Source: Terrirubrum flagellatum (GTDB lineage: Bacteria; Pseudomonadota; Alphaproteobacteria; Rhizobiales; Beijerinckiaceae). From it: a stretch of DNA of 64,000 nucleotides. Where the stretch lies: positions 310,001 through 374,000 of the forward strand of contig NZ_CP091852.1 in the NCBI RefSeq assembly GCF_022059845.1, given 5' to 3'. Under the pieces are notes generated by a model. It was not told the DNA's origin. It searched no databases and worked only from the letters and a program-made list of their open reading frames with translations. The position numbers and the translations under genes were made by a program. Positions 46,073 to 60,312 of this stretch are shown here, one piece after another (positions within the stretch are counted from its first letter, which is position 1; every line of letters starts with the position of its first letter).

Positions 46073-46272
46073 AGCCTGAAGACATCGACATCGACGCCTA
46101 TATTGCGGTTGCATCCGCTGCGATCGGACTGACGATCGATCCGCAATATCGCGACGAGGTCGCGCGGCAGTTCGGGTTGCTTTTGCGCGCGGCGGCGCTC
46201 GTCGATGGCGCCGACGGCGTGACGCGGCTTGAAGAGCCTGCTCCGATCTTCACGCCCGGAGCGCGCGGATGA
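46069..46272 (+). CDS. atzG: AtzG, small subunit of the 1-carboxybiuret hydrolase complex
   Basis: Protein of 67 residues (DUF4089 family). It has the helix pattern IDIDAYIAVASAAIGL and YRDEVARQFGLLLRAAALV, like GatC-related AtzG, which binds and stabilises AtzE. It lies exactly between atzF and atzE with GTGA and ATGA overlaps at both ends, which matches the atz operon. The GTG start is chosen for the overlap. Easily missed because of its size. Confidence 0.85.
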   Translation: MKPEDIDIDAYIAVASAAIGLTIDPQYRDEVARQFGLLLRAAALVDGADGVTRLEEPAPIFTPGARG

Positions 46273-47666
46273 GTCGCGCGCCGGGCTTTGCTTTTGAGAT
46301 CGCCAACTCTGTCTCACGCGGTGAGACGTCCGCGTCCGGCATCGTCGAGGACGCGTTGTCGCGTATCGACGCTCGCGACCGCGATGTCGGCGCATTCACG
46401 GATGTCGTTGCCGAACGCGCGCGGCGCAAGGCTGCTATTATAGACGCCGATCGCGCCGCCGGCCGCGCGATAGGTCCGCTCGCCGGCGTGCCGTTTGCGG
46501 TCAAAAACCTTTTCGACGTCGAAGGGCTTCCCACCCGCGCCGGATCGAAGATCAATCGCGAGCGATCGCCAGCCGCGCGCGACGGCGCGCTCGTGCGCAA
46601 GCTGGAGGGCGCGGGCGCGATTCTCCTCGGCGCGCTCAACATGGGCGAATACGCCTACGATTTCACCGGCGAAAACGCCCATGACGGCCCCTCGCGCAAT
46701 CCACATGATCTGACGCGCATGTCCGGCGGCTCGTCCGGCGGCTCGGCCGCAGCCGTCGCCGCGGGCTTTGCGCCGCTGTCGCTCGCCTCCGACACCAATG
46801 GATCGATCCGCGTGCCGTCTTCTTTCTGCGGTTTGTTTGGATTGAAGCCGACTTACGGCCGCCTGTCGCGCGCCGGAACTTTTCCCTTTGTCGATAGTCT
46901 CGATCATCTCGGGCCAATTGCTCGCTGTGTGAAGGACCTCGCGCTTTCCTATGATGCGATGCAAGGGGCGGATGCGGACGATCCCGCGTGCCAACCGCCG
47001 GGACATGCTCCGACGCTGCGTGAGATCGAGCTTGGCGCCAACGGGCTGCGCGTCGCGATCGCCGATGATTATTTTGCGCGTGGTGGATTTCCAGAAGCGT
47101 TTGCGGCGGTCGAGCGTGTTGCAAATGCGCTGAACGCGACGCGGCGCGTCGTCTTTCCCGAGGCGGCGCGAGCGCGGGCCGCCGCCTATCTCATTACGGC
47201 AAGCGAGGGCGGCGCGCTCCATCGCCGCACGCTTGCGGCGCGCGCCGCCGACTACGATCCGGATACGCGCTGCCGGCTCATGGCCGGCGCCATGATCCCG
47301 ACGGCTTGGATCAATGACGCGCAACGGTTTCGTCGCTGGTTTCATGATCGCGCGCTGGAGATCTTCCGCGATGTCGACATCGTCATTGCGCCTGCGACGC
47401 CATTTTCCGCGCCGAAACTCGGACAGAAGAGTTTCATGCTTGATGGCTCCGAGATTCCCTTGCGGGCCAATATTGGCGTGTTCACGCAGCCGATTTCCTT
47501 CGTCGGTCTGCCGGTCGTCGCAGCGCCCGCCGCGGCGTCAGGCGAGGCGCCTATTGGCGTGCAGATCATTGCAGCGCCCTGGCGCGAGGATCTCGCGCTG
47601 AGAGCAGCTTTCGAACTTGAACGCACAGGCGTCTCCCGCGCCCCCGTCGCCGCGTCTTTTGCCTGA
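46269..47666 (+). CDS. atzE: AtzE, 1-carboxybiuret amidohydrolase
   Basis: Amidase-signature enzyme of 465 residues. The triad is Lys79 (FAVKNLFDVEG), Ser155 (SGGSSGGS) and Ser179 (SDTNGSIRVP). PLAGVPFAVKNLFDVEGLPT and DFTGENAHDGPSRNP match AtzE. In the cyanuric acid pathway AtzE with AtzG hydrolyses 1-carboxybiuret, the product of cyanuric acid hydrolase, to 1,3-dicarboxyurea. Its presence implies that a cyanuric-acid ring opener exists elsewhere or was lost. Confidence 0.87.
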   Translation: MSRAPGFAFEIANSVSRGETSASGIVEDALSRIDARDRDVGAFTDVVAERARRKAAIIDADRAAGRAIGPLAGVPFAVKNLFDVEGLPTRAGSKINRERSPAARDGALVRKLEGAGAILLGALNMGEYAYDFTGENAHDGPSRNPHDLTRMSGGSSGGSAAAVAAGFAPLSLASDTNGSIRVPSSFCGLFGLKPTYGRLSRAGTFPFVDSLDHLGPIARCVKDLALSYDAMQGADADDPACQPPGHAPTLREIELGANGLRVAIADDYFARGGFPEAFAAVERVANALNATRRVVFPEAARARAAAYLITASEGGALHRRTLAARAADYDPDTRCRLMAGAMIPTAWINDAQRFRRWFHDRALEIFRDVDIVIAPATPFSAPKLGQKSFMLDGSEIPLRANIGVFTQPISFVGLPVVAAPAAASGEAPIGVQIIAAPWREDLALRAAFELERTGVSRAPVAASFA

Positions 47667-47670
47667 GGTC

Positions 47671-48066
47671 ATGATGGAAATCGACATTCCCGAGGTGAAG
47701 GCCGAGGTTGAAGCCGTGTTCCGACGCTATGAGACGGCGCTCGTCGACAACGATGTGGATACGCTCGATGAGCTTTTTCACAGGGATGCGCGCACGCTGC
47801 GCTTCGGCGCCGGAGAGAATCTGTTTGGCTATGACGCGATCGCGAATTTCCGCGCCGCGCGCTCGCCGGCGGGGCTCGCGCGCACGCTCGAAGGTACGGT
47901 TATCACTACATTTGGCTGCGATTTCGCGACCGCCTCGACGCTATTTCGGCGCGCGAGCGTGCCAGGAAAAGTAGGTCGACAAACGCAGACATGGGTGAGG
48001 TTTGCGGATGGCTGGAAAGTAGTTGCGGCGCATGTCTCACTGATTCAGGAAACGAGCGAGCGTTGA
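47671..48066 (+). CDS. atzH: AtzH-like protein (DUF3225, NTF2 fold)
   Basis: Protein of 131 residues with VEAVFRRYETALVDNDVDTL, ELFHRDARTLRFGAGENLFG, TLEGTVITTFGCDFATASTL and TWVRFADGWKVVAAHVSLI, the AtzH/DUF3225 pattern. AtzH of Pseudomonas ADP was reported to decarboxylate/hydrolyse 1,3-dicarboxyurea to allophanate, preventing a dead end between AtzE and AtzF. ATG 47671 or 47674; GAGG lies just upstream of the first. It is the last gene of the plus-strand operon, convergent with the M24 gene 29 bases later. Confidence 0.85.
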   Translation: MMEIDIPEVKAEVEAVFRRYETALVDNDVDTLDELFHRDARTLRFGAGENLFGYDAIANFRAARSPAGLARTLEGTVITTFGCDFATASTLFRRASVPGKVGRQTQTWVRFADGWKVVAAHVSLIQETSER

Positions 48067-48095: not shown

Positions 48096-49292
48096 TCATC
48101 TCATATGAAGCTCAAGCGGAATGTCGCTCAACAGCTCCGCGGCGCCTTCCGTGATGACGAAGGTCTGGCCAAGTCCCGCGGCAAGTCCGGTGCGCGTATC
48201 CGGGATCATGATATGGACGAACAGCACCATGCCCGGCTGCATGATCAGAGGATTACCGCTGTAGATCATCGGCGGCACATCCATCCAGGTGGGGCGGAAG
48301 GTGCAGCCGAGCGAATAGCCGCAGGCGGCGAAGCGCTCCTTGGCGAAGCCGGCGGCGTCGAGCACGCGGCGATGAATGTCATCGAGCGTTCCAAGCTCGC
48401 GGCCAGCGCGGGCGGACGCAACGATTTCGTTCAGCGCGTCGGCTGCAACCTTGATCATGTCCTCGTGTCGCGGATCGACCTTGCCGATGGCGACCGTGTG
48501 CTCGATGCAGACGTGATAGCGGCAATAGGACGCGCCAAGTTCGATCATCATCTGATCGTTGGCGTCGAGCCGCCGAGGGCCACCGACGCCGCGGCCATAG
48601 AGAGCGCGCGGGCCTGAATTCACCAGCGGACCGCCGGCCGGCATGTCGCCGCCGGCGGCGAGCATCGCAGCGATGCCTGCGGCGGTCGCTTCGCTGTCGA
48701 GCGCGCCGGGGCGCGTCGCGCCGACCATCGCGTGCACCGCCGCATCCGCGAGCTTGCCCGCCTCGCGGACATAGACGAGTTCCGCCGATGATTTCATCAG
48801 ACGCAGATTGCGCACGAGATCGGAGGCGTCCTCGAGCGCGCAGAATCCGTTGAGCGCAGATTCGACTTCGCGGCAATTCGCGCCCGTGAGGCCATAGGTC
48901 GCAAACTCGACGCCGACCTTCGCGCCCTCGCAGCCCAACTCTTCAAGAATGCCGCGCAATTCCAGCGCCGGCCGGACGCCCTCCGTGTTCAGCCAGATGC
49001 GGATGTCGTCATAGAGCGAAGAGACTTCCGCCTGCCGCAGATCGGGCCTGCGCGTCAGCAATACCGTCGGCTTCTCGTCGGCGGTGATCACGCCGACCTG
49101 AAAGAAAACATAGCCCGCGGTGTCGAAGCCGGTCAGATAATAATGGCTTTCCTGCGCGAACACGAGGAGCGCGGCGAGGCCGCGCCGCTTCATCTCGGCG
49201 CGCGCGTGGGCGATGCGGCTCTGATGCTCCTCGGCCGTGAAGCGCAAGGTGACGGAACGGCCGCCCGCAGTTTTCGCTGCGATTTCACTCAT
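48096..49292 (-). CDS. M24-fold hydrolase without metal ligands, ectoine-hydrolase-like (copy A)
   Basis: Pita-bread-fold protein of 398 residues with an N-terminal creatinase domain (HYYLTGFDTAGYVFFQ, about 50-66). The five metal ligands of M24 peptidases are all replaced: the Asp pair region reads IELGASYCRYHVCIEHT, the His loop reads CGYSLGC, and the two Glu positions are His360 and Gly375. The YCRYH and GYSLG-PxW patterns resemble ectoine hydrolase DoeA/EutD, a metal-free ring-opening enzyme whose reported catalytic Glu (255) aligns with Glu251 here. So a cyclic amide or amidine substrate is likelier than a peptide. Last gene of a minus-strand transporter operon. Confidence 0.75.
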   Translation of the reverse strand: MSEIAAKTAGGRSVTLRFTAEEHQSRIAHARAEMKRRGLAALLVFAQESHYYLTGFDTAGYVFFQVGVITADEKPTVLLTRRPDLRQAEVSSLYDDIRIWLNTEGVRPALELRGILEELGCEGAKVGVEFATYGLTGANCREVESALNGFCALEDASDLVRNLRLMKSSAELVYVREAGKLADAAVHAMVGATRPGALDSEATAAGIAAMLAAGGDMPAGGPLVNSGPRALYGRGVGGPRRLDANDQMMIELGASYCRYHVCIEHTVAIGKVDPRHEDMIKVAADALNEIVASARAGRELGTLDDIHRRVLDAAGFAKERFAACGYSLGCTFRPTWMDVPPMIYSGNPLIMQPGMVLFVHIMIPDTRTGLAAGLGQTFVITEGAAELLSDIPLELHMR

Positions 49293-49310
49293 GATGGGCT
49301 CCTTCAGAAT

Positions 49311-50954
49311 TCAGCGGGCGACAGCCGCGTCCGTTCGCATCGCCTCAAGCAGCGAGCGGGTGTAGGGATGGCGATGCTCCGCATCGAAATCTTCGGCGTC
49401 GAACAGATCGACAAGGTCGCCGCGATAGACGACCGCGATGCGATGGGCGATCTGGCGCACGAGATTGATGTCGTGCGTGATGAAGATGAAGGACGCGCCC
49501 GTGCGCGCGCGCAGATCGACCAGAAGCCGCGCGACAGACGCCTGCACCGACACGTCGAGCGATGACGTCACTTCATCGCAGATCACGAGTTTCGGCTCGG
49601 CTGCGAAGGCGCGCGCGATAGCGACGCGCTGCTTTTCGCCGCCTGACAATTGATGGGGGTAACGGTCGGCGAAGTCGGCAGGCAAACGAACCTGTTCGAG
49701 CAGCGCCGCGATCCGTTCCTTGATCTCCGAGCCCTTCGCCAGACCGTAAAGTTTCAGCGGCCGCGACAGGATCTCGCTCACGCGCTGGCGCGGATTGAGC
49801 GAGGAATCGGGGTGCTGGAACACGATCTGCGCCGACCGCCGATAAGTGCGATCCAGTGATGTCCGGCCAGTGAATGTGCGGCCGCTAAACTCAATCTCAC
49901 CGGAGAAATCCTGCAATCCCGCGATCGCCTTGGCGACGGTCGATTTGCCGGAGCCGGACTCGCCGACCACGCCGAGAATTTCGCCTTCGCGCACGTCGAG
50001 ATTGATCGAACGCGCGCCGATCACGCGTTCGCGCGCGGAGCCCATCAAGCGGCGGATGATCGACGTCTCGCCATAGCTCACGGTCAGATCGCGCATGCGC
50101 ATCAGAGTAGGCGCGCCTGCCGATGGTCCCTTGTCGGCGAGTCTGACTTCGGGGCGCGGGATCGCGGCGAGCAACGCCTTCGTATAGTCGCGCTGCGGGC
50201 TGGCGAAAATGTCGGCCGTGCGGCCGCTCTCGACAATCTCGCCGCGATGGATCACGGCGACGTCATGGGCGACGCGCGAGACCAGCGCGAGGTCATGCGA
50301 GATGTAAAGCGCCGCAACGCCCGTATCTTCCTGGAGCTTGACGAAGAGATCGAGAATCTGCCGCGACGTGATCACGTCAAGTGCGGTCGTCGGCTCATCA
50401 AAAATGATGCAATCGGGATTGCAGGCGAAGGCGGTTGCGATCACCACGCGCTGCTTCTCGCCACCGGACGCCTGATGGGGATAGCGCTCCATCATTTCGG
50501 CCGGGCGCGCAATGCCGGTGCGCGCCAGCAGTTCCTGCCCCTCCGCAAGTGCGTCACGCTTCGACAATTTGCGGTGTCGGATCAGCACTTCGGCGATCTG
50601 GTCGCCAAGACGCAAGGTCGGATTGAGCGACGTGCTCGGATCCTGGAACACCATGCTGATGCGCTGCCCGCGAAGCGCCGCTATCTCCGACCGGCTCTTG
50701 GCGCGCAAACCCTCGCCGGAGAGGTAGAGCGAACCATCGCCTTCGCGCGCATTGGCGGGGAGATAGCGCATGATCGCCCATGCGAGCGAGGTCTTGCCGG
50801 AGCCGGACTCGCCGACGAGGCCCAGCGTGCGGCCTCTCACGACGGAGAGGTCGACTGATTTGAGCGCATGGAAAAGGCCGCTCCGCGTCGCGTAACTCAG
50901 CGAATAGCCCCGCGCTTCGAGCGTCGGCGGCGCTGGCTGCACGTCCGCCTTCAT
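49311..50954 (-). CDS. Fused DppD-DppF ATP-binding protein (second system)
   Basis: Double ATPase of 547 residues. First domain: GESGSGKTSLAWAIM (about 46) with ASGGEKQRVVIATAFA. Second: [16 protein letters not shown] with LSGGEKQRVAIARAFA and VICDEVTSSLDVSVQ. ATG 50954 overlaps the upstream permease stop (ATGA); the frame is open 50 codons further but that part is a shadow of the permease gene. Powers the importer at 50951-54257. Confidence 0.9.
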   Translation of the reverse strand: MKADVQPAPPTLEARGYSLSYATRSGLFHALKSVDLSVVRGRTLGLVGESGSGKTSLAWAIMRYLPANAREGDGSLYLSGEGLRAKSRSEIAALRGQRISMVFQDPSTSLNPTLRLGDQIAEVLIRHRKLSKRDALAEGQELLARTGIARPAEMMERYPHQASGGEKQRVVIATAFACNPDCIIFDEPTTALDVITSRQILDLFVKLQEDTGVAALYISHDLALVSRVAHDVAVIHRGEIVESGRTADIFASPQRDYTKALLAAIPRPEVRLADKGPSAGAPTLMRMRDLTVSYGETSIIRRLMGSARERVIGARSINLDVREGEILGVVGESGSGKSTVAKAIAGLQDFSGEIEFSGRTFTGRTSLDRTYRRSAQIVFQHPDSSLNPRQRVSEILSRPLKLYGLAKGSEIKERIAALLEQVRLPADFADRYPHQLSGGEKQRVAIARAFAAEPKLVICDEVTSSLDVSVQASVARLLVDLRARTGASFIFITHDINLVRQIAHRIAVVYRGDLVDLFDAEDFDAEHRHPYTRSLLEAMRTDAAVAR

Positions 50955-51769
50955 CGATGCGCCCTGGGGTCGATGAGATCGCGCAGCGCGTCGCCGAACA
51001 GGTTGAAGCCGAGCGCCGCGATGGCGATGGCGACGCCGGGGACTGCGACGCAGGCGGGATTGCGGAACATGAACTGACGCGCTTCGGCGATCATCAGGCC
51101 CCATTCCGTGCTCGGCGGCTGCGCGCCAAGACCGAGAAAGCCGAGCGTGGCGCCAAGCATGATGGCAAAGGAGACGCGGATGGTCGCTTCGATGATGATC
51201 GGGCCAATCGTGTTCGGCAGCACTTCGCGCAACACCACGTAGCCGCGAGATTCGCCGCGCGCGACGGCGGCAAGCACATAGTCGCGCGTCCGCACCGACA
51301 GCACCGCGCTGCGCGCGATGCGGGCAAGGCCCGGCGTGAAAGCGATGGCGACCGCGAGCATAGCGTTGCCCGTACCGCCGCCAAGCACGGTGACAATCAG
51401 CAGCGTGAAGAGAAGATCAGGCACCGCGATCAGCCCGTCGAGCAGACGCATCACGAGATTGTCGACTATTCCGCCGATCGAACCCGCCATGACGCCGATT
51501 GCGGCGCCGGCGATGACGCCGATCAGGGTCGCGCCAAGGCCGAACAGGATCGTCGCGCGCGCGCCATGCAGCAGGCGCGACAGGAGATCGCGGCCGAACT
51601 GATCCGTGCCGAGCCAGAATTGCGCCGAGGGACCTTGCAGACGCGATATCGTGTGGAATTGCTGGGGATCGTAGGGGGCGATCAGCGGTCCCAGCACGAC
51701 AGCGAAAGCCACGAGGCCAAGCAGGATCGCGGCTGCGACTCCGGCCGGCCGCCTCAAATAATCACGCAT
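50951..51769 (-). CDS. DppC-type ABC transporter permease (second system)
   Basis: Permease of 272 residues with IAPYDPQQFHTISRLQGPSA, LGTDQFGRDLLSRLLHGARA and GFLGLGAQPPSTEWGLMIAE, the usual DppC markers. It overlaps the end of the DppB gene by 8 bases. Confidence 0.9.
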   Translation of the reverse strand: MRDYLRRPAGVAAAILLGLVAFAVVLGPLIAPYDPQQFHTISRLQGPSAQFWLGTDQFGRDLLSRLLHGARATILFGLGATLIGVIAGAAIGVMAGSIGGIVDNLVMRLLDGLIAVPDLLFTLLIVTVLGGGTGNAMLAVAIAFTPGLARIARSAVLSVRTRDYVLAAVARGESRGYVVLREVLPNTIGPIIIEATIRVSFAIMLGATLGFLGLGAQPPSTEWGLMIAEARQFMFRNPACVAVPGVAIAIAALGFNLFGDALRDLIDPRAHR

Positions 51770-52712
51770 AGCGGACGCGCGGATCGAGCGCCGCGATCAC
51801 GATGTCGGCGACGAGGTTGGAGATGGCGTAGGTCGCGGCGAGCACAAGCGTTGCGGCCTGGATGACGGGGAGATCGCGATTCTGCAGGGCATAGATCATC
51901 AGCCGCCCGAGGCCTGGCCAGGCGAACACTTCTTCAACGACGAGAATGCCGCCGAGGAGATAGCCGACATCGAGCGAAATCACCGCCACCGCCGGCGCCA
52001 TCGCGTTGCGTAGCGCGTGGCGGAGAACGACGGCGGTTTCGGATAGGCCCTTCAACCGTGCGGCGCGGACATAGTCACTCGCGAGCACGTCGGACATCTC
52101 GCTGCGCACCTGCCGCGCGATATGAGCCGTGAGGATGAGGCTGAGCGTCGCCGTCGGCAGCACGAGATGGGAGAGAAAGCCTGTCACGCTTTCATTGATC
52201 GGCGTGAAGCCGCCGGCGGGCAGAAATCCGCGCTCGGGGCTCGCGAAGATCACCAGCAGCAGCGTCGCCGTCACGAATTCCGGCAGCGCGGTGCCGATAT
52301 AGGCGAAGAAGCTGATCACGAGATCGGTGAAGCCGCCGCGCCTGAGCGCCGAGAGAACGCCAAGCGGAATCGCGATCACAGTCACCGTGAGCAGCGACGC
52401 GGCCGCGAGCGCCGCCGAGCGCCAGAACGCTTCGCCGATCAGATGCGTCACCGGCTGCGACAGCCGCATCGACACGCCCCAGTCGCCACTCAGCGTGCGG
52501 CCGAGCCAGCGCAGATATTGAACATACCAGGGATGATCGAGGCCAAGCGAAAGTTCGAGCAGGCGGCGCTGCTCGTCCGTCGCATATTCGCCGAGGATCA
52601 TCACCGCCGCATTGCCCGGCAGAATCTGCGTGATGGCGAAGACTGTCAGCGAAACGATCAGCAGGACGACAAGGATCGCGGCCAACCGCCGGATGAGGTA
52701 GGCCGCGTCCAT
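51762..52712 (-). CDS. DppB-type ABC transporter permease (second system)
   Basis: Permease of 316 residues with FAITQILPGNAAVMILGEYA, LGLDHPWYVQYLRWLGRTL and VRAARLKGLSETAVVLRHAL, as in DppB/GsiC. It starts 9 bases after the binding protein stop. Confidence 0.9.
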   Translation of the reverse strand: MDAAYLIRRLAAILVVLLIVSLTVFAITQILPGNAAVMILGEYATDEQRRLLELSLGLDHPWYVQYLRWLGRTLSGDWGVSMRLSQPVTHLIGEAFWRSAALAAASLLTVTVIAIPLGVLSALRRGGFTDLVISFFAYIGTALPEFVTATLLLVIFASPERGFLPAGGFTPINESVTGFLSHLVLPTATLSLILTAHIARQVRSEMSDVLASDYVRAARLKGLSETAVVLRHALRNAMAPAVAVISLDVGYLLGGILVVEEVFAWPGLGRLMIYALQNRDLPVIQAATLVLAATYAISNLVADIVIAALDPRVRYA

Positions 52713-52721
52713 TTCTCGCTC

Positions 52722-54257
52722 TTAACCCCGCTGCAGCCAGACATTCTCGACGTAGAAGTTCTTCGCGAGCGGATGCGCCGTCCAGTTCTTCACCACATTG
52801 CGGCTGGCCGTGAGAACGTCCTGGAAGAATGGAATGATCGAGGGCACATCCGTCATCATCAGGCGCTGCGCCTCATCATAGGTCTTGCGGCGCTCGGCGT
52901 CGTCGATCTGCGCCCGGCCTTTGGCGACGAGATCATCGAACTTCTTGTTGTTCCACGCCGTGTCGGCGAAGGCGGCGTCTGACGTGAAGAGCAGCGTGAA
53001 GGCGGCGTCCTCGGTCGACTGCATGCCCCAGTAGCCGATATAGAATTGGCCCTTGCGCCAGACATTGGCGAGATAGGTGTCGTGCGGAATGGTCTGCACG
53101 TCGATGTCGAAGCCGGCGGGCTTCGCCATTTCCTTCACGGCAATGCCGACCTGCGAGCGAATGGCGGGACGGTTCGAGCAGACGAGCGGAATCTTGAGCC
53201 CGTTGGGATAACCGGCTTCCGCCAGCAGTTTCTTCGCGGCGGCCGGATCATATTTCGGCGACGGCGAATCGAGCAGATAGCGATAGCCAGGCGAAATGCA
53301 GTTGTCGGCGGCGGGGCGGCCATAGCCTTCGAGCACGATGTCGACGAGCGTCGACCGGTCGACAGCCATCGCCATGGCGCGACGCACGCGCACATCGTCG
53401 AATGGCTTCTGATCTTGTCGCATGACGATGTTGACGAAACGCCCCGAAGGAACGCGCTGGCCGGTGACGCCAGGCGCAGAAGAGATGCGTTTGAAATCGG
53501 CCTGCTGCACTTCCAGCATGGCGTCCATGGCGCCCGACAGGAAGTTCGCGGATTCCGCCGCGAGATCGGGAAACAGATGCATCTCGACCGCGTCGAGATA
53601 GGGCTTGCCGGCCTGATAATAGTTCGGATTCTTGACGAGCCGCAGCATGCGCGCGCTGTCATAGGTTTCGACCTTGAAGGGGCCGGTGCCGATCGCCTTG
53701 GTGTCGAGCGTGGTCAGGGGCTGCTTCAAGAGTTCCGCCGAAACGATGCGCGCATTCGCGTGGGTCAGCGCCACCGGCAAATCGGCGTAAGGCGAGTTCA
53801 GCGCGAACTTCACTGTCATCGGATCAACCGCGGCGACATCAACAATCATGCTGAGCACAGCGCGCGCCGGCGAATTGCTCTTGACGTCGAGGATCGTCCT
53901 GATGGTCGCGACGACGTCTTCCGACGTGAAGGGCTTGCCGTCGTGGAAGGTCACGTTCGGCCGGAGCTTGAAGGTGAACTCCTTCGCGTCGAGCGTCGCG
54001 CTCCACTCGGTCGCAAGGTCGGGCATGGGGCGCATGTCGATGCCGAGCCGCGTCAGGCCGGAATAGAGCATGTCCATGGCGAGATATTCGGCGGGGCCGG
54101 AAATCTGCAGCACGTTGAGCTGCGCGACGCGGGTGGGGTGGCTGATCTTGAGCACGCCGCCGGGCTTCGGCGTCGCGGTTTGCGCAAAAGCCGGCAAGGT
54201 CGAGGCGGCGGCGAGCCCCGCGATCGCGCCGCGTCGTGAGATGTTCGATATCGTCAT
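52722..54257 (-). CDS. Dpp-type ABC transporter substrate-binding protein (second system)
   Basis: Family 5 binding protein of 511 residues. N-terminus ISRRGAIAGLAAASTLPAFAQ is a Tat signal with cleavage near FAQ-T. Body markers are LATEWSATLDAKEFTFKLRP, VTFHDGKPFTSEDVVATIRT and DQKPFDDVRVRRAMAMAVD. ATG 54257 is preceded by GGGAAGGG; an in-frame start at 54272 lacks this. It is flanked in the operon by two M24-fold genes, so its ligand is probably their substrate. Confidence 0.88.
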   Translation of the reverse strand: MTISNISRRGAIAGLAAASTLPAFAQTATPKPGGVLKISHPTRVAQLNVLQISGPAEYLAMDMLYSGLTRLGIDMRPMPDLATEWSATLDAKEFTFKLRPNVTFHDGKPFTSEDVVATIRTILDVKSNSPARAVLSMIVDVAAVDPMTVKFALNSPYADLPVALTHANARIVSAELLKQPLTTLDTKAIGTGPFKVETYDSARMLRLVKNPNYYQAGKPYLDAVEMHLFPDLAAESANFLSGAMDAMLEVQQADFKRISSAPGVTGQRVPSGRFVNIVMRQDQKPFDDVRVRRAMAMAVDRSTLVDIVLEGYGRPAADNCISPGYRYLLDSPSPKYDPAAAKKLLAEAGYPNGLKIPLVCSNRPAIRSQVGIAVKEMAKPAGFDIDVQTIPHDTYLANVWRKGQFYIGYWGMQSTEDAAFTLLFTSDAAFADTAWNNKKFDDLVAKGRAQIDDAERRKTYDEAQRLMMTDVPSIIPFFQDVLTASRNVVKNWTAHPLAKNFYVENVWLQRG

Positions 54258-54268
54258 GACCCTTCCCC

Positions 54269-55447
54269 TCAAACGATTTCGGTCAATGCATCAGGCAGGC
54301 CAGTCAGCACCTCCGGCGCGCCTTCGGTGACGAGCAGTGTGTGGCCGACGCCCATGGCGTAGCCGGTGTCGCTGTCGCCGATCATCACGTGATAGAAGAG
54401 CGTCATGCCGGGCTGGCAGATCGTGGGATTGCCGGAATAGATCATCGGCGGCACGTCCATGCTGGTCGGCGCGAAGGTGCAGCCGACGGAATAGCCTGTC
54501 GCGCCGAAACGATGCGCCTTGAAACCGGCCCCGTCGAGGCCCGCCGCGTGGGCGTCGAAAATCTCGCCAAGCGTCGTTCCCGGCCGCGCGATCTCGGTCA
54601 TCTTCGCCAGCGTGTCGCGGGCGGTCTGGTACATGTAGCGCTGACGCTCGCTCGCTTTGCCCAGGATGATCGTCCACTCCGTCTTCACGTTATAGCGGCG
54701 ATAGGCGACGGGATATTCGACGACGATTTGATCGACGGGTTCGAGCCGGCGCGGCGCCGAGACGCCACGGCCATAGACGGCGCGACTGCCGGAGTTGAAG
54801 AGCGGCGCGTTGGGCGGCATGTCGCCGCCGCCTTCGAGAACCGTTTTGAGATAGGTCGCGGTCAATGACGAATCCATCACGCCGGGACGCGCCGCAGCGA
54901 TGACATCGATCAGCGACTTGTCGAGCAATTCCGCCGCCTTGCGGGTGTACACGATCTCGGCTGGCGATTTCACCAGCCTGAGCCAGCGGATCATGTGGTC
55001 GTCATTGTCGAGCGTGCAGAAACCGGCGAGCGTCTTCTGCAGGCGCCAGAGGTTCCAGCCCGTGAGTCCGTGCGTGTTGAGTTCGACCGCGATGCGCTTT
55101 CCCTCAAGAGCCAACTCTTTCAGGATGTCCTTGAGTTCGCGCGCAGGGTTCGCGTCTTCAGCGTCCCACCACAGCCTGATGTCCTCGATCGTGCTGGTCT
55201 GGCGCGCCTGGAGAAGATCGGGCCGGCGCGTCAGCAGGACGATGGGTTTCTCGTCCGCGGTGACCACAGCGCACTGGAAGAAGACGAAGCCGCCGGTGTC
55301 GTAGCCGGTGAGCCAATAGTGACTCTCCTGCGCAAAGACGAGCATCGCATCGAAGCCACGCTCGCGCAGCGTGCTGCGCAGTTTCGCCTGCCGCGCCAGA
55401 TGCTCCTCGCGACTGAACGGCAAGGTGGGAACGCCGGAAAACGCCAT
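54269..55447 (-). CDS. M24-fold hydrolase without metal ligands, ectoine-hydrolase-like (copy B)
   Basis: Paralogue of the protein at 48096, 392 residues, with HYWLTGYDTGGFVFFQ near residue 43. Metal positions are lost here too: VVEYPVAYRRYNVKTEWT for the Asp pair (Glu244 kept), GYSVGC for the His loop, LFYHVM and GVGHTL for the Glu pair. Shared oddities with copy A, such as PPMIYSGNP and a His in place of the first Glu, show a common and conserved chemistry. The YRRYN/GYSVG pattern resembles DoeA/EutD. First gene of the minus-strand operon, divergent from a GntR gene. Confidence 0.75.
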   Translation of the reverse strand: MAFSGVPTLPFSREEHLARQAKLRSTLRERGFDAMLVFAQESHYWLTGYDTGGFVFFQCAVVTADEKPIVLLTRRPDLLQARQTSTIEDIRLWWDAEDANPARELKDILKELALEGKRIAVELNTHGLTGWNLWRLQKTLAGFCTLDNDDHMIRWLRLVKSPAEIVYTRKAAELLDKSLIDVIAAARPGVMDSSLTATYLKTVLEGGGDMPPNAPLFNSGSRAVYGRGVSAPRRLEPVDQIVVEYPVAYRRYNVKTEWTIILGKASERQRYMYQTARDTLAKMTEIARPGTTLGEIFDAHAAGLDGAGFKAHRFGATGYSVGCTFAPTSMDVPPMIYSGNPTICQPGMTLFYHVMIGDSDTGYAMGVGHTLLVTEGAPEVLTGLPDALTEIV

Positions 55448-55512
55448 TGCGCCTTGCCTCCTCGCCTGAACGGCTTTGCCGTCAGGACCCCATTGCCCCG
55501 ACGCTATTGCGT

Positions 55513-55520
55513 GGTATACC
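55513..55520. promoter_or_regulatory. Candidate GntR operator between divergent operons
   Basis: GGTATACC is a perfect 8-base palindrome (in GTGGTATACCGTT) in the 204-base gap between M24 copy B and the GntR gene. TGGTATACCA-like sites are common for FadR-subfamily GntR proteins. The flanks are only partly symmetrical. Confidence 0.5.
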
Positions 55521-55651
55521 GTTCGTCAACCACTGGAATGCCTCATCCGTGACCACCACTGCACGATCTTCAGGCGCGAAGCATTGCGGCGGCCCGCTTA
55601 TTGTCCTTACGCAGGCACGATGATTCTTTCTCTCCCAATCCTGACACGCTG

Positions 55652-56311
55652 ATGCTGACGCCGCCCGACAAGCGCCTGGCGCTCCAGGCCTATGAGCAGG
55701 TGCTCGATCTCATCATGTCGAGGCGGATCGCGCCGGGAACGCTGCTGCAGGAGCGCAGGCTTGCCGAGCATCTGCAGATGTCGCGCACGCCGCTGCGCGA
55801 CGCGCTGCTGATGCTGGAGGGCGAAGGACTTCTGATCCGGCAGGGATCCAAAGGCCTGCAGGTGAAGTCGATGAACGTGCAGGACTTCATCGAGAATCTC
55901 GCCGTGCGCAAATTGCTTGAGCCTGAGGCTGCGCGGCTCGCAAGCGGACGCATCGACCGTGAGCATCTCGACTCGCTCGCCGAGCGTCTTGCGGAAATGA
56001 TTGCGCAGGCTTCCTCGAGCAGCGGCGCGCCCGACCGCGGCGACGTGCGCGCCATCGACGACGAATTGCATTCGGCGATCACCGAGGCGGCCGGCAACGC
56101 GCAGATGGCGCAGATCATCCGCACCTTGCGTCGCCAGACGCAGATCTTCGATCTGCGCAGCGTACCCGAGCGTTTTGAGGCAACCTGTCGCGAGCATCTC
56201 GCCATCGTCGAGGCGCTGCGCGACAACCGCGCCGAAGATGCGGCGAACGCCATGCGCACCCATCTCGACGGCGTGCGCCAGAGCATCATCGCGCGCCTGA
56301 CCGGCGCGTGA
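55652..56311 (+). CDS. GntR-family regulator (FCD type)
   Basis: Regulator of 219 residues with a winged helix (RRLAEHLQMSRTPLRDALLML, about 35-55) and an FCD domain with DDELHSAITEAAGNAQM and REHLAIVEALRDNRAEDA, including probable metal-binding Asp/His positions. It is divergent from the M24/transporter operon and overlaps the M20 gene (GTGA), so it is well placed to control both. ATG 55652 is used; TTG 55601 is an in-frame alternative with a less family-like N-terminus. Confidence 0.85.
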   Translation: MLTPPDKRLALQAYEQVLDLIMSRRIAPGTLLQERRLAEHLQMSRTPLRDALLMLEGEGLLIRQGSKGLQVKSMNVQDFIENLAVRKLLEPEAARLASGRIDREHLDSLAERLAEMIAQASSSSGAPDRGDVRAIDDELHSAITEAAGNAQMAQIIRTLRRQTQIFDLRSVPERFEATCREHLAIVEALRDNRAEDAANAMRTHLDGVRQSIIARLTGA

Positions 56312-57615
56312 CCCGCGCTGCGATGACCGAGGCGCCCGACATCGCTCGAACGAAGCCCGAGGCCGCGCCCGACATTGCGCTCGCGTCGCGACTCTTCGAG
56401 GAGTTGCGCGCGCGCACGGCCGCCGACGAGGGGGTCACCCGCGCCTCCTATGGCGAAGGCGAACAGGCGGCGCATGCGATCGTCCGCCGCGAGGCGGAAA
56501 AGCTCGGCCTTGAGATCGCGACCGACGCTGCGGCGAATCTCTACATGACAATGCCGGGCGCAGAGCGGGAGCGCGCCATCTTCATCGGCTCGCATCTCGA
56601 CTCGGTGCCGCGCGGCGGCAATTATGACGGCGCCGCAGGCGTTTTCATGGGCCTGTCAATACTGTCGGGCTATCGTCACGCCGGCGCGCAGCCGCCCCGC
56701 GACATCACAGTGATGGCGATCCGCGCCGAGGAAAGCACCTGGTTCAATTCCTCCTATATCGGCAGCCGCGCCGCATTCGGGCGGCTGCGCGCAGAGGAGC
56801 TTGATGGGCTCAAGCGCGCCGGGGACCAACGCACGCTCGCCGACTGCATCGCCGATTGCGGCGGCGATCCCGCCGCGCTGCGCCGCGCGCGCGCCCATCT
56901 CGACCCCAACCGCATCGCAGCCTTCATCGAGCCGCATATCGAGCAGGCGGAAGGGTTGGTCATCCGCAATAAGCCTTTCGCTGTTGTGACAGGCATTCGC
57001 GGCGCGTTCCGCTATCGCGAAGCGCGCTGCCTCGGCGTCTACGCTCATTCCGGCGCGACGCCGCGCGATGCGCGACGGGACGCGGTCGCCGCCGTGTCGG
57101 CCTTCGTCGTCGAAATGAACGCAGCATGGCGCGCGCGCGAGGCGGTAGGCGAAGATCTCGCGGTCACCTTTGGACAATTCGCCACCGATCCCGACGAGCA
57201 CGCTTTCAGCAAGATCGCTGGCCGCGTCGATTTCTCGCTCGATGTGCGCAGCCAGTCAGCCGCCACTCTTGTAGCCGTGCGAAACGACGCGCTCGCGGTC
57301 ATCGAACGCATCGCGCGTGAACATCAGGTGTCTTTCGATATCGGGCCGCTGACCACCACCGAGCCGGCGCTGATGGATCAGGGCGTCATCGACGCGCTGA
57401 AAAGCGCAGCAGGCGGATCGGCGCCGCTCGTGCCTTGCGGCGCGGGCCATGACGCGGCGGTTTTCGCCGCGATTGGCGTCCCCACGGGCATGCTTTTCAT
57501 CCGCAACGCCAATGGCAGCCACAATCCGCGCGAGCACATGGCGATGGAGGATTTCGCCGCCACAGCGGCGGTGCTCTCCGACGCCTGCCTCTCCGGACGC
57601 CTGGCGCCGCGATGA
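56308..57615 (+). CDS. M20-family amidohydrolase, N-carbamoyl-amino-acid hydrolase / allantoate amidohydrolase type
   Basis: Dinuclear metal hydrolase of 435 residues. Ligands are visible: His and Asp in GSHLDSVPRGGNYDGAAGV (about 95-110), Glu in IRAEESTWF, His in EPHIEQAEG and His in CGAGHDAAVF near the C-terminus. The lid domain begins with GAFRYREARCLGVYAHSG. Relatives remove a carbamoyl group from N-carbamoyl amino acids or hydrolyse allantoate. GTG 56308 overlaps the regulator stop; ATG 56323 is possible. With the M24-like ring openers it could form a two-step route for a cyclic ureide or amide. Confidence 0.83.
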   Translation: MTRAAMTEAPDIARTKPEAAPDIALASRLFEELRARTAADEGVTRASYGEGEQAAHAIVRREAEKLGLEIATDAAANLYMTMPGAERERAIFIGSHLDSVPRGGNYDGAAGVFMGLSILSGYRHAGAQPPRDITVMAIRAEESTWFNSSYIGSRAAFGRLRAEELDGLKRAGDQRTLADCIADCGGDPAALRRARAHLDPNRIAAFIEPHIEQAEGLVIRNKPFAVVTGIRGAFRYREARCLGVYAHSGATPRDARRDAVAAVSAFVVEMNAAWRAREAVGEDLAVTFGQFATDPDEHAFSKIAGRVDFSLDVRSQSAATLVAVRNDALAVIERIAREHQVSFDIGPLTTTEPALMDQGVIDALKSAAGGSAPLVPCGAGHDAAVFAAIGVPTGMLFIRNANGSHNPREHMAMEDFAATAAVLSDACLSGRLAPR

Positions 57616-58562
57616 TCGACTGCGTCATCACGCAGCCGATCCATGAAGAGGGCCTCGCTCTTCTGAACGCTGCGGGATTGACGGTTCACGTCGCCGCCGA
57701 TCCCGGCCTGATGACGCTTGCGCCGCATCTCGCGGACGCCCGCGCGGTGATCACGCGCAACGCCGGCTTCTCCGCCGCCATGTTGACGGCCGCTCCTCGC
57801 CTGGAGGTGATCGGCAGTCATGGCGCCGGCGTCGACGCCATCGATCTTTCCGCCGCTGAGGCGCGCGGAATCATCGTCGTGAATACGCCAGGCGCCAACG
57901 CGCAATCGGTGGCGGAGCTCGCATTCGCGTTGGTCTTCGCCTGCGCGAAGATGATCGTTCCGGCTGATCGCGCCGTGCGCGCCGACGATTTCAGCTTTCG
58001 ATACCGCCAGACAAGTTTCGAGCTTCAGGGCCGGACTCTCGGCCTCGTCGGTTTCGGCGCGATCGGACGGCGCATGGCCGGGATGGCGAAAGCGTTCGGC
58101 ATGAGGGTCGCTGTCTGCTCGCAGCATGCGAGCGCCGAAGATCTCGCAGAATGCGGCGCAGAATCCCTGTCGCTCGACGCGCTTTGCGCGCAGGCGGATA
58201 TCGTCTCGCTGCACGGCCTCCCGCGCGACGCGGCGCGGTTCGATGCGGCGCGGTTCACGCGCATGAAGCCCGGCGCCGTTTTCATCAACACCGCGCGCGG
58301 CGCGCTTGTTGAGGAAGCCGCGCTGGCGCAGGCGCTTGTCGACGGACGGCTCGCTGCAGCGGGAATCGACGTGTTCGCGACTGAACCGCTCGATCGTCAA
58401 AATCCATTGCTCGCCGCCCCGAACCTTGTCATGACGCCCCATGTCGGCGGCTCCACCGAAGAGGCGCTGGCGCGCACCGCGCGCGAAGTCGCAGGCGACA
58501 TCGTGCGCGTGCTGCGCGGAGAGAGCCCAAGGAACCCGGTGACGTCAGGACCAGCGAAGTGA
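57612..58562 (+). CDS. D-isomer-specific 2-hydroxyacid dehydrogenase
   Basis: NAD-dependent dehydrogenase of 316 residues. The Rossmann loop is LGLVGFGAIGRRMAGMA (about 140-155). The catalytic Arg is in INTARGALVEE, and the His in MTPHVGGSTEEA. It is related to PGDH and hydroxypyruvate reductases and would interconvert a 2-hydroxyacid and a 2-oxoacid. It overlaps both neighbours (ATGA before, GTGA after), so it belongs to the same nitrogen-compound operon. No ACT domain, so serine biosynthesis is unlikely. Confidence 0.83.
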   Translation: MIDCVITQPIHEEGLALLNAAGLTVHVAADPGLMTLAPHLADARAVITRNAGFSAAMLTAAPRLEVIGSHGAGVDAIDLSAAEARGIIVVNTPGANAQSVAELAFALVFACAKMIVPADRAVRADDFSFRYRQTSFELQGRTLGLVGFGAIGRRMAGMAKAFGMRVAVCSQHASAEDLAECGAESLSLDALCAQADIVSLHGLPRDAARFDAARFTRMKPGAVFINTARGALVEEAALAQALVDGRLAAAGIDVFATEPLDRQNPLLAAPNLVMTPHVGGSTEEALARTAREVAGDIVRVLRGESPRNPVTSGPAK

Positions 58563-59296
58563 CGGCGACGGTCGGCGCCATGGCGCCACGCGTCCTCGAT
58601 TGCGGCGACGGCGCCATCTCGGTCGAGTTCGGTGATCGAGTCGACGCCGCCGTGAACGCGCGCGTGCTCGCGCTCGACGCCGCGCTGCGCGACATCGATA
58701 TTCCCGGCCTGATCGAGACCGTTCCGACCTATCGCTCCCTGCTCGTCTGCTTCGACCCCGTCGCCACCGATATCAACGCGCTGCGTGCGCTCATCTTCTC
58801 GCTGAGCGCAACAGGCGAACATGGCTCCGCCTCTGCGAGACGATGGCGCGTGCCCGTGATCTATGGCGGCGAATTCGGCGTCGATCTCGCGGAGTTCGCC
58901 GCGCGCCACAGCATGACGCCTGATGAAATCATCGCCGCCCATTCCGGCGCGATCTATCGCGTCTACATGATCGGCTTCATGCCGGGCTTCGCCTATCTCG
59001 GCGGTCTCGATCCCAGGCTCGAAACACCGCGACGATTGCAACCCCGCCTGAAGACGCCGGCGCAATCGGTGTCGATCGGCGGCGCGCAGGCGGCGGTGAG
59101 CTCCGTCGAGGCGCCAAGCGGGTGGCATCTGCTCGGGCGCACGCCGGCGCGCCCGTTCATGCCGGCTCGCGATCCTATCTTCCTGTTCGGCGCCGGCGAT
59201 GAAATTCAGTTCGAGCCCATTGCAGCGACAGAATGGGATCAGCTCGACGCCGCCGCGGCGCGCGGCGAAATGGTCGCCTCCTGCGAGACGACATGA
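58559..59296 (+). CDS. pxpB: PxpB/KipI-like 5-oxoprolinase subunit
   Basis: Protein of 245 residues of the CT_C_D / KipI family. Markers are DGAISVEFGDRVDAAVNARV at the N-terminus, YIGFMPGFAYLGGLDP-like MIGFMPGFAYLGG (about 140), and SVSIGGAQAAVSSVEAPSGW. In PxpABC it works with PxpC and PxpA in ATP-dependent opening of 5-oxoproline. The start is GTG 58559, which overlaps the previous stop. No intact pxpA is in the window. Confidence 0.87.
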   Translation: MTATVGAMAPRVLDCGDGAISVEFGDRVDAAVNARVLALDAALRDIDIPGLIETVPTYRSLLVCFDPVATDINALRALIFSLSATGEHGSASARRWRVPVIYGGEFGVDLAEFAARHSMTPDEIIAAHSGAIYRVYMIGFMPGFAYLGGLDPRLETPRRLQPRLKTPAQSVSIGGAQAAVSSVEAPSGWHLLGRTPARPFMPARDPIFLFGAGDEIQFEPIAATEWDQLDAAAARGEMVASCETT

Positions 59297-60312
59297 GCGA
59301 TCTCATTGTCGAATCCTGCGGCGCGTCGACGACGCTTCAGGACGCAGGGCGCTTTCGATATCGCCGCTATGGCGTCTCGACCGCTGGCGCCATGGATTTG
59401 CATGCGCTGGCGCGCGCCAACGCGCTCGTGGGTAATGCGCACGATACAGCGGCGATTGAGTTCTGCCTGATGGGCGGCGCTTTTCGCATCGATGGCGGAT
59501 CGGCGCTGATCGCCGTATCAGGGCCTGGCTGCATCGCCAGGATCGGCGCGCGCGAGATCGAACCCGGCATGTCCGCGCGCATGGAGCCAGACGATCGACT
59601 TACGGTCGGCCCCGTGCGTGACGGCGTCTACGCCTATCTCGCCATTACAGGCGGCTTCCTGCGCGCGAGAGACATGGAGAGCCTGTCGGTCCATCGCCGT
59701 TCCGGCATCGGCGGCCTGCCGCTTGTGGCGGGCGACCGTCTGCCGATGGCAGACAATCCTGATCAGCCGTTGCGGCGGCTGCCGCCTGAAACGCGTCACA
59801 CGCCGGAGCCGATCCGCATCGTGCTTGGGCCGCAGAACGATCTCTTCACGCCGCGCGCCATCGAAACATTGACAACGCAGGAATTCAAAATCAGCGCGCA
59901 AGTCGATCGCATGGGGTGCCGGCTCGAAGGGCCTGAGATCGAGCACGCCGATGGATTCAACATCGTCTCCGACGGCATTGTCGCCGGCCATATCCAGGTT
60001 CCCGGCGACCGCCAGCCGATCGTGCTCCTGCGCGACAGCCAGACCACCGGCGGCTATCCCAAGATCGCGACCGTGATCAGCGCCGACATCGGCCGCTTCG
60101 CGCAATCGCCGCCCGGCTCCGCCGTGAAATTCCGTCTCGTGACGCGCGACGAAGCCGTCGAGGCGGCCAAAGAGATGCGCGAGAAGATCGACGCGCTCGC
60201 CACCCTCGCGCGACCGGTGGAGGATCAGTCCGCGAAGGACATGCTCTTCGCCGCGAACCTCATCGGCGGCGTCGCCAACGCTTTTGATTTCGAGCCGCGC
60301 TGGCTCGACTGA
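59293..60312 (+). CDS. pxpC: PxpC/KipA-like 5-oxoprolinase subunit
   Basis: Protein of 339 residues of the CT_A_B / biotin-dependent carboxyltransferase-like family. It has TTLQDAGRFRYRRYGVSTAG at the N-terminus, LMGGAFRIDGGSALIAVSGP, IVLGPQNDLFTPRAIETL and SDGIVAGHIQVPGDRQPIVL. ATG 59293 overlaps the pxpB stop (ATGA). It forms the PxpBC complex that phosphorylates/activates the lactam. The last gene of the plus-strand operon; a possible pxpA remnant lies immediately downstream on the opposite strand. Confidence 0.87.
   Translation: MSDLIVESCGASTTLQDAGRFRYRRYGVSTAGAMDLHALARANALVGNAHDTAAIEFCLMGGAFRIDGGSALIAVSGPGCIARIGAREIEPGMSARMEPDDRLTVGPVRDGVYAYLAITGGFLRARDMESLSVHRRSGIGGLPLVAGDRLPMADNPDQPLRRLPPETRHTPEPIRIVLGPQNDLFTPRAIETLTTQEFKISAQVDRMGCRLEGPEIEHADGFNIVSDGIVAGHIQVPGDRQPIVLLRDSQTTGGYPKIATVISADIGRFAQSPPGSAVKFRLVTRDEAVEAAKEMREKIDALATLARPVEDQSAKDMLFAANLIGGVANAFDFEPRWLD

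Follow-up and report, generated by a model that had tools for sequence, protein, structure and literature searches.

The stretch analysed here, referred to as the window, comprises 64,000 nucleotides of the alphaproteobacterium Terrirubrum flagellatum (order Rhizobiales; contig NZ_CP091852.1, positions 310,001 to 374,000), and the subject is a pair of its genes, A and B, whose products have the fold of M24 peptidases but not their metal ligands. The A and B open reading frames flank a complete ATP-binding cassette (ABC) importer consisting of a binding protein, two permeases, and a fused double ATPase. Five genes diverge from B, encoding a GntR regulator, an M20 hydrolase, a dehydrogenase, PxpB, and a PxpC-like protein (Table 1). 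By their coordinates they overlap by four bases at each junction, and these overlaps point to a single transcript. For the remaining component of PxpABC, PxpA, family members are encoded only elsewhere in the genome, in two copies.

Table 1. Genes and regulatory features of the A/B locus, in window coordinates
Feature	Position	Strand	Remarks
A: hydrolase-like protein of M24 fold, metal-free, 398 aa; Glu251 candidate nucleophile	48096..49292	(-)	
ABC importer fused double ATPase, peptide-type	49311..50954	(-)	internal ATG picked as start; listed open reading frame extends to 51104
ABC importer permease 2, DppC/NikC type	50951..51769	(-)	
ABC importer permease 1, DppB/NikB type	51762..52712	(-)	
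Solute-binding protein (SBP), SBP family 5	52722..54272	(-)	top PDB sequence match 6hlx (AgaA); real start possibly internal to open reading frame
B: hydrolase-like protein of M24 fold, metal-free, 392 aa; Glu244 candidate nucleophile	54269..55447	(-)	
Predicted promoter of B operon	55501..55529	(-)	-35-like TTGACG 55524-55529; -10-like TAGCGT 55501-55506
Palindrome GGTATACC	55513-55520		within 17-base spacer of predicted B promoter
GntR/FCD regulator	55601..56311	(+)	divergent from B
M20 hydrolase, hydantoinase/carbamoylase family	56308..57615	(+)	expected metal ligands retained
D-isomer-specific 2-hydroxyacid dehydrogenase	57612..58562	(+)	
PxpB, 5-oxoprolinase subunit	58559..59296	(+)	above NCBIfam cut-off
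PxpC-like carboxyltransferase A/B protein	59293..60312	(+)	TIGR00724 above cut-off; PxpC equivalog model below cut-off

Residues, fold, and phylogeny of A and B

A and B are 51% identical, and both score above the Pfam cut-offs for Creatinase_N and Peptidase_M24, which together with the fold match described below makes them M24-fold proteins. Where metal-keeping M24 proteins of the same genome have the ligands D, D, H, E, and E, A has E251, C262, Y326, H360, and G375, and B has E, K, Y, H, and G; neither protein has the ligand set that marks an M24 metallopeptidase. The canonical letter is absent at all five columns from 53 A-clade and 51 B-clade rows (in the A clade, three ligand columns contain one gap each, and column 262 is uncertain, with C in 30 rows and V in 23), which bears out the claim of an initial annotation that both copies have lost all five ligands. 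The same annotation described Glu251 of A and Glu244 of B as new residues. This part does not stand, as the glutamate sits in the column of the first Asp ligand and is also present in ectoine hydrolase (EutD; 20/20 rows) and in four further metal-free clades (56/56), and hence in 180/180 rows when the seven clades without metal ligands (A, B, U, T, S, EutD, and N) are taken together. It aligns with Glu255 of EutD (6twk numbering, counted from the sequence alignment), which we take to be the nucleophile and which reportedly, in work of Mais and colleagues from 2020, forms a covalent intermediate.

Several other residues are typical of the pair or of wider groups. Tyr326, which replaces the ligand His, is found in EutD as well (20/20). 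The string PPMIYSGNP, previously presented as conserved in both copies, is typical but not invariant: PPM occurs in 52/53 A and 51/51 B rows, and the full string in 35/53 and 28/51. His360 and PPM are common to the U and T clades; the S clade has His360 and P-M, with the PPM string in 0/28 rows. Peculiar to A (53/53) and B (51/51) is Glu264; at this column Met is found in U, T, S, and N (with one Phe), and Ser in most EutD rows (17/20). The residues singled out in the initial annotation define a broader group and not just the pair.

The genome of the window contains one further member of this group, a third metal-free copy belonging to the S clade (L135:9848-11044, corresponding to C1:5321871-5323001 on another contig) and lying near a ribose-phosphate pyrophosphokinase gene. 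The S-clade copy of Rhizobium leguminosarum (L154:11195-15096) is directly 3' of pgeF and near lgt, and the neighbourhood of S-clade copies looks like a housekeeping one. The N clade is a second metal-free M24 type, with His at column 234. It is found near a class-I glutamine amidotransferase-like gene (L057, L061, L066, L041, L042, L045, L046, L047, and L049); among the loci counted, N is present in 15 and the amidotransferase-like gene in 16.

The AlphaFold models of A and B have a mean predicted local distance difference test score of 95.1 and 93.7, respectively. In VIA-align comparisons, three EutD entries (product-bound, substrate-bound, and apo) rank highest for both proteins, with Z scores of 47.3, 47.0, and 45.9 for A (root-mean-square deviation 1.7-1.9; 373-382 aligned residues) and 47.6, 47.1, and 46.1 for B. 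The next entry scores 40.9 for A and 41.4 for B. The best PDB sequence match of both is DoeA, so that overlay and sequence agree with the likeness to ectoine hydrolase noted initially, although a common fold by itself demonstrates no function. EutD/DoeA (6twj, 6twk, and 6yo9) shares with A and B the fold, the absence of metal ligands, the glutamate, the Tyr that replaces the ligand His, Arg81, Gln65, Asp84, and Asp216; in contrast, identity is only 24-25%, and Ser, His, and Thr of EutD correspond to Glu48, Arg234, and Gly375 of A and B. Creatinase (1chm and 7yto), which works without metal, also has the fold of A and B, but identity falls to 17-18% and the Z score of 1chm (40.6 for A, 40.4 for B) is below that of EutD. 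The Xaa-Pro dipeptidases and aminopeptidases (M24B) share fold and Pfam domains with A and B, in which their five metal ligands are replaced.

Phylogenetic placement was examined in a quick IQ-TREE analysis of 65 rows, which superseded an earlier FastTree with only four outgroup rows. The outgroup consisted of nine other M24 proteins of the window's genome, six of which (five distinct) have all five ligands, and three of which (L004, L007, and L010) do not. Close placement with active metallopeptidases, named in the initial annotation as a refutation, was not obtained: the other 56 rows, made up of four further relatives and the clades A, B, U, T, S, EutD, and N, are split from the nine by a branch with a Shimodaira-Hasegawa-like approximate likelihood ratio test (SH-aLRT) value of 98, although the long outgroup branches advise caution. 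A, B, U, T, and S form one clade with two actinobacterial proteins (SH-aLRT 100), and the nine EutD rows form a separate clade (SH-aLRT 100) that does not include A or B. The branching order of the A/B clade, EutD, and N is not settled by the tree.

The conserved gene block, its partner operon, and its promoter

For comparison, 72 loci were collected from a set of genome contigs with patterns built on the A/B pair (the best 80 of 162 matches were kept). These loci were selected for likeness, several come from near relatives, and locus ends make absences unsafe and lower the counts; the 53% threshold for calling A also admits some T and U members. B occurs with the importer ATPase in 42 loci including the window, 38 of which also have A (besides the window, 41 and 37). 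The A-importer-B block recurs beyond chance, and the complete importer between the two genes can be called dedicated, as was first proposed. A Rhizobium plasmid (NZ_CP129381) carries B, the binding protein, A, and M20 together. Among the 42 B loci, an M20 hydrolase is present in 41, GntR in 38, a second, ArgE/DapE-like M20 (M20b, absent from the window) in 29, a DapA-like gene in 25, and PxpA in 7.

The divergent operon, which the initial annotation overlooked, narrows the chemistry to be expected of A and B. Its M20 protein belongs to the hydantoinase/carbamoylase family, scoring above the TIGR01879 cut-off (241.4 vs. 204 bits) and retaining H96, D107, E142, H210, and H405, presumably the metal ligands, in 44/44 rows. 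The closest PDB entries are an L-carbamoylase (3n5f) and allantoate amidohydrolase. A distinctive F300-S301-K302 is likewise present in 44/44 rows, where the carbamoylase 3n5f has N-V at S301-K302.

The intergenic regions that separate B from the divergent GntR gene, taken from 27 loci plus the window, contain GGTATAC in 27 of 28 cases, 25 of them in the form of GGTATACC. A few bases before GGTATAC, the 27 regions upstream of B have the box GTTGAC (26) or GTTGAT (1). In the window, GGTATACC lies inside the 17 bases that separate TTGACG from TAGCGT, a promoter-palindrome arrangement with the layout of a repressor site to which GntR would bind. A whole-genome search with the composite promoter-palindrome pattern, allowing at most one mismatch, returned only the window's own site. 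Defining a regulon by the bare palindrome with up to two mismatches was abandoned: 18 sites were found against 54 in a reversed control, and the window's own site was missed.

At 44261-48066 of the window, on the (+) strand, are genes for an allophanate hydrolase, an AtzE-family amidase, and an HpxZ/AtzH-like protein, convergent with A. They are a separate amide or oxalurate-type operon; AtzF-AtzE-HpxZ was rejected as a part of the A/B system on account of this convergent orientation and of the weak AtzE matches (31-33%) that are all that is found beside A in the other loci compared (L025 and L042). On contig C1, a PxpA-family gene (C1:3226004, L177) is about 2 kb from an M24 protein without the Asp ligands (C1:3223185, L007).

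Relatives with other partner genes

Genes related to those of the window also occur in other combinations. On a Methylobacterium plasmid, a metal-free M24 gene of another lineage, a GntR gene, and an amino-acid-type importer face M20, PxpA, PxpB, and PxpC-like genes. In Roseomonas, genes for dihydroorotate dehydrogenase and orotate phosphoribosyltransferase flank an M20 gene whose product is 46% identical to that of the window, a context that would suit an N-carbamoyl (amino acid) substrate. In Thalassobaculum, the gene of an A relative (53%) diverges from genes for a DoeB2-like M20 (331 bits; cut-off, 550) and a diaminopropionate ammonia-lyase (469 bits; cut-off, 276), an order that echoes the ring opener, deacetylase, and diamino acid of the ectoine pathway. 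Two Actinobacteria (L152:11911-17482 and L153:11995-17647) have a metal-free M24 gene, its product 33% identical to B, together with creatininase-family, major facilitator superfamily, pyridoxal phosphate (PLP) protein, and RidA genes; the RHA1 PLP protein scores 567 against a cut-off of 600 for the cysteine desulfhydrase Cds1 model. These recurring contexts favour a succession of ring opener, amidohydrolase, and amino-acid breakdown. A comparable plan in two steps, a ring opener followed by an amidohydrolase, is that of AtcB and AtcC of Pseudomonas, which would be similar in family. The route from aminothiazoline carboxylate through carbamoyl-cysteine to cysteine is described in PMC10821248.

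Six plasmids (L169-L174: Agrobacterium vitis, two Rhizobium, Variovorax, Duffyella, and Roseomonas) carry sibling blocks with an importer of the same family as the window's. Their binding proteins are 45-48% identical to that of the window (48% in A. vitis, with 62% for the ATPase). In five of the six (Variovorax excepted) an M20 gene takes the place of B and, as in the window, a GntR gene accompanies the importer; a second M20 lies at the block end. Neither GGTATAC nor GTTATAC was found on the strand read in five sibling-block intergenic regions, and three sibling-block GntR proteins had no blastp match to the window's GntR at E<=1e-3. The A. vitis block also contains a distant M24 gene.

A candidate ring-opening route and its alternatives

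The reading favoured here, to which we give an even chance, is that A and B resemble EutD as hydrolases working without metal, and that they open the ring of a small cyclic C-N compound brought in by the importer, for which a cyclic amidine, an isourea or isothiourea, or a ureide of an amino acid would be a candidate. The cyclic amide or amidine suggested in the initial annotation is likewise a putative substrate. The favoured reading is built on the fold, the ligand loss, the conserved Glu, the gene block, the palindrome in a promoter-like element, and the M20 ligands; from these we infer covalent catalysis, ring opening, the order of steps, GntR binding, and the class of substrate. In all probability A and B work like EutD, given the shared Glu column, the modelled fold, and the loss of metal. 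The ABC importer would take up the cyclic compound, and the conserved Glu (251 in A, 244 in B, corresponding to EutD Glu255) would attack the ring carbon to form a covalent intermediate, which water would free as an N-carbamoyl or N-acyl amino acid. M20, using its own metals, would strip the carbamoyl or acyl group, and PxpBC with the PxpA encoded elsewhere would process a 5-oxoproline-like lactam. The GntR protein may repress the operons while the compound is absent. Probably the two enzymes either differ in substrate or act on successive forms of a single compound.

Hydrolysis by A and B of amide rings in imported cyclic dipeptides or lactams, with M20 peptidases cutting the linear product, has a small but real chance of being correct. 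The importer belongs to the dipeptide/opine family, the sibling blocks with M20 at B's position (five of six) fit, and the second M20 of these blocks has 65-66% identity (two compared, from A. vitis and R. leguminosarum) to the M20b of 29/42 B loci; yet the window has no M20b, its divergent M20 falls into the carbamoylase family, and metal-free M24 hydrolases such as creatinase and EutD act on amidine or guanidine carbons and are not known to act on plain amides. Nothing usable was found in the literature on diketopiperazine hydrolases or on a matching gene cluster. It is quite improbable that the rings opened by A and B are lactones or lactams belonging to opines or Amadori-type compounds (similar to agropinic acid, or N-substituted 5-oxoprolines). 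The top PDB match of the binding protein is AgaA (6hlx), which presumably binds agropinic acid, but the match is non-discriminating, with 164 bits against 162 and 146 for other binders. A 5-oxoproline product would suit PxpBC, and a divergent M24-like gene of a Ti plasmid (L175:21294-22481), a putative agropine synthase gene, lies beside probable mannityl-opine genes; its product is very distant and has Cys in place of Glu at column 251. Among the collected rows its best blastp matches are EutD rows. Neither of the two Ti-plasmid stretches listed shows a gene with the annotation of a catabolic mannopine cyclase. Mannityl opines are treated in PMC4231840.

Creatinase-like cleavage of a linear guanidino compound by A and B as amidinohydrolases is rather improbable. 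Creatinase is close in structure, and in Nisaea (L073:8697-11182) the end of an M24 gene with a presumably creatinase-like ligand motif is the start of the A-relative open reading frame, but EutD is the better match by both structure and sequence, and A and B have Arg234 where EutD and N rows, as well as creatinase, have His. The chance is also very low that A and B are subunits of a single, obligately heteromeric enzyme or that one of them is a non-catalytic partner. The paralogues lie close together, A accompanies B in 38/42 loci, and M24 enzymes with this fold form dimers that share their active sites. Against this, both copies retain Glu251/244, Tyr326/319, Gln65, Arg81, Asp84, and Asp216 (the last four in A numbering), and each gene occurs without the other. 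B stands without A in 4/42 blocks, all with M20b, despite at least 4.2 kb (4.2-5.0 kb) of further sequence past the ATPase; in these four assemblies, the completeness of which is not told, only the B match (51-52%) and one of 39-43% were found. Conversely, 19 loci have an A-family gene and no B; three of these (L014, L021, and L040) are cut blocks, and in six the gene belongs to T or U. In three assemblies from the remainder the sole further match is 41-48% identical and may be a distant B. Because B occurs without A and A without B, it is more probable that the two enzymes are useful separately than that they make up an obligate complex.

The creatinase and ectoine hydrolase reactions are covered by PMC3187862, which, like PMC8739950, describes ring opening by DoeA/EutD and subsequent deacetylation by DoeB/EutE. 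That A and B are ectoine hydrolases after all is almost certainly wrong and was rejected on cut-offs, tree, and genome context. EutD is their top structural and sequence match, but the scores of A and B are far under the cut-offs of TIGR02993 (121.6 and 128.2 bits; cut-off, 613) and NF038259 (162.9 and 147.7 bits; cut-off, 575), and the pocket columns differ. The genome has no EutD match at E<=1e-100, and its two matches to the EutE family TIGR02994, both on contig C1 and not on the window's contig, are below cut-off (best 278.2 vs. 402.7 bits); the absence of ectoine genes asserted earlier agrees with this failure to find a complete ectoine pathway. By cut-off, clade, and partner genes, A and B are not members of the EutD family.

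Several observations weigh against A and B as EutD-like openers of cyclic C-N compounds. The pocket has Glu48 at the Ser/Ala column of EutD, Arg234 at the His column, and Gly375 at the Thr column, and because of these differences EutD chemistry may not transfer to A and B. Some metal-free M24 proteins lack the Glu, with Cys in the Ti-plasmid relative and Asn in the L073 creatinase-like protein. The importer is of peptide/opine type, and the window M20 is under the cut-off of NCBIfam PRK12891 (431 vs. 461). PxpB and the dehydrogenase are each present in 17 of the 42 B loci and PxpC in only 10, partly owing to locus ends. The neighbours of other A relatives vary, with a 4-hydroxyproline epimerase in L044 and L048, a creatinase-like gene in L073, and an amine-oxidase-like gene in L082; this speaks against a single pathway, and the group is possibly functionally mixed.

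A literature search, with subscription papers mostly outside its coverage and so no proof of absence, yielded no paper recognised as treating the A/B pair. That A and B belong to a new clade of metal-free M24 ring openers and, with their importer, carbamoylase-type M20, and PxpABC, constitute an undescribed catabolic pathway in which two novel and different activities serve to degrade a widespread cyclic nitrogen compound is a tentative proposal, held at slightly less than even confidence. Relatives of A and B carry an Xaa-Pro peptidase annotation in public records, and among the collected rows of A, B, T, U, and S the peptidase metal site is absent throughout (146/146). An A+B profile matches at E<=1e-60 in 119 of 297 genomes sampled from the order, mostly with S-type or unsorted proteins, the ligands having been checked in the collected rows only. 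Should A and B be ring openers like EutD, a whole group is misnamed, and a nutrient route of the Alphaproteobacteria would be involved.

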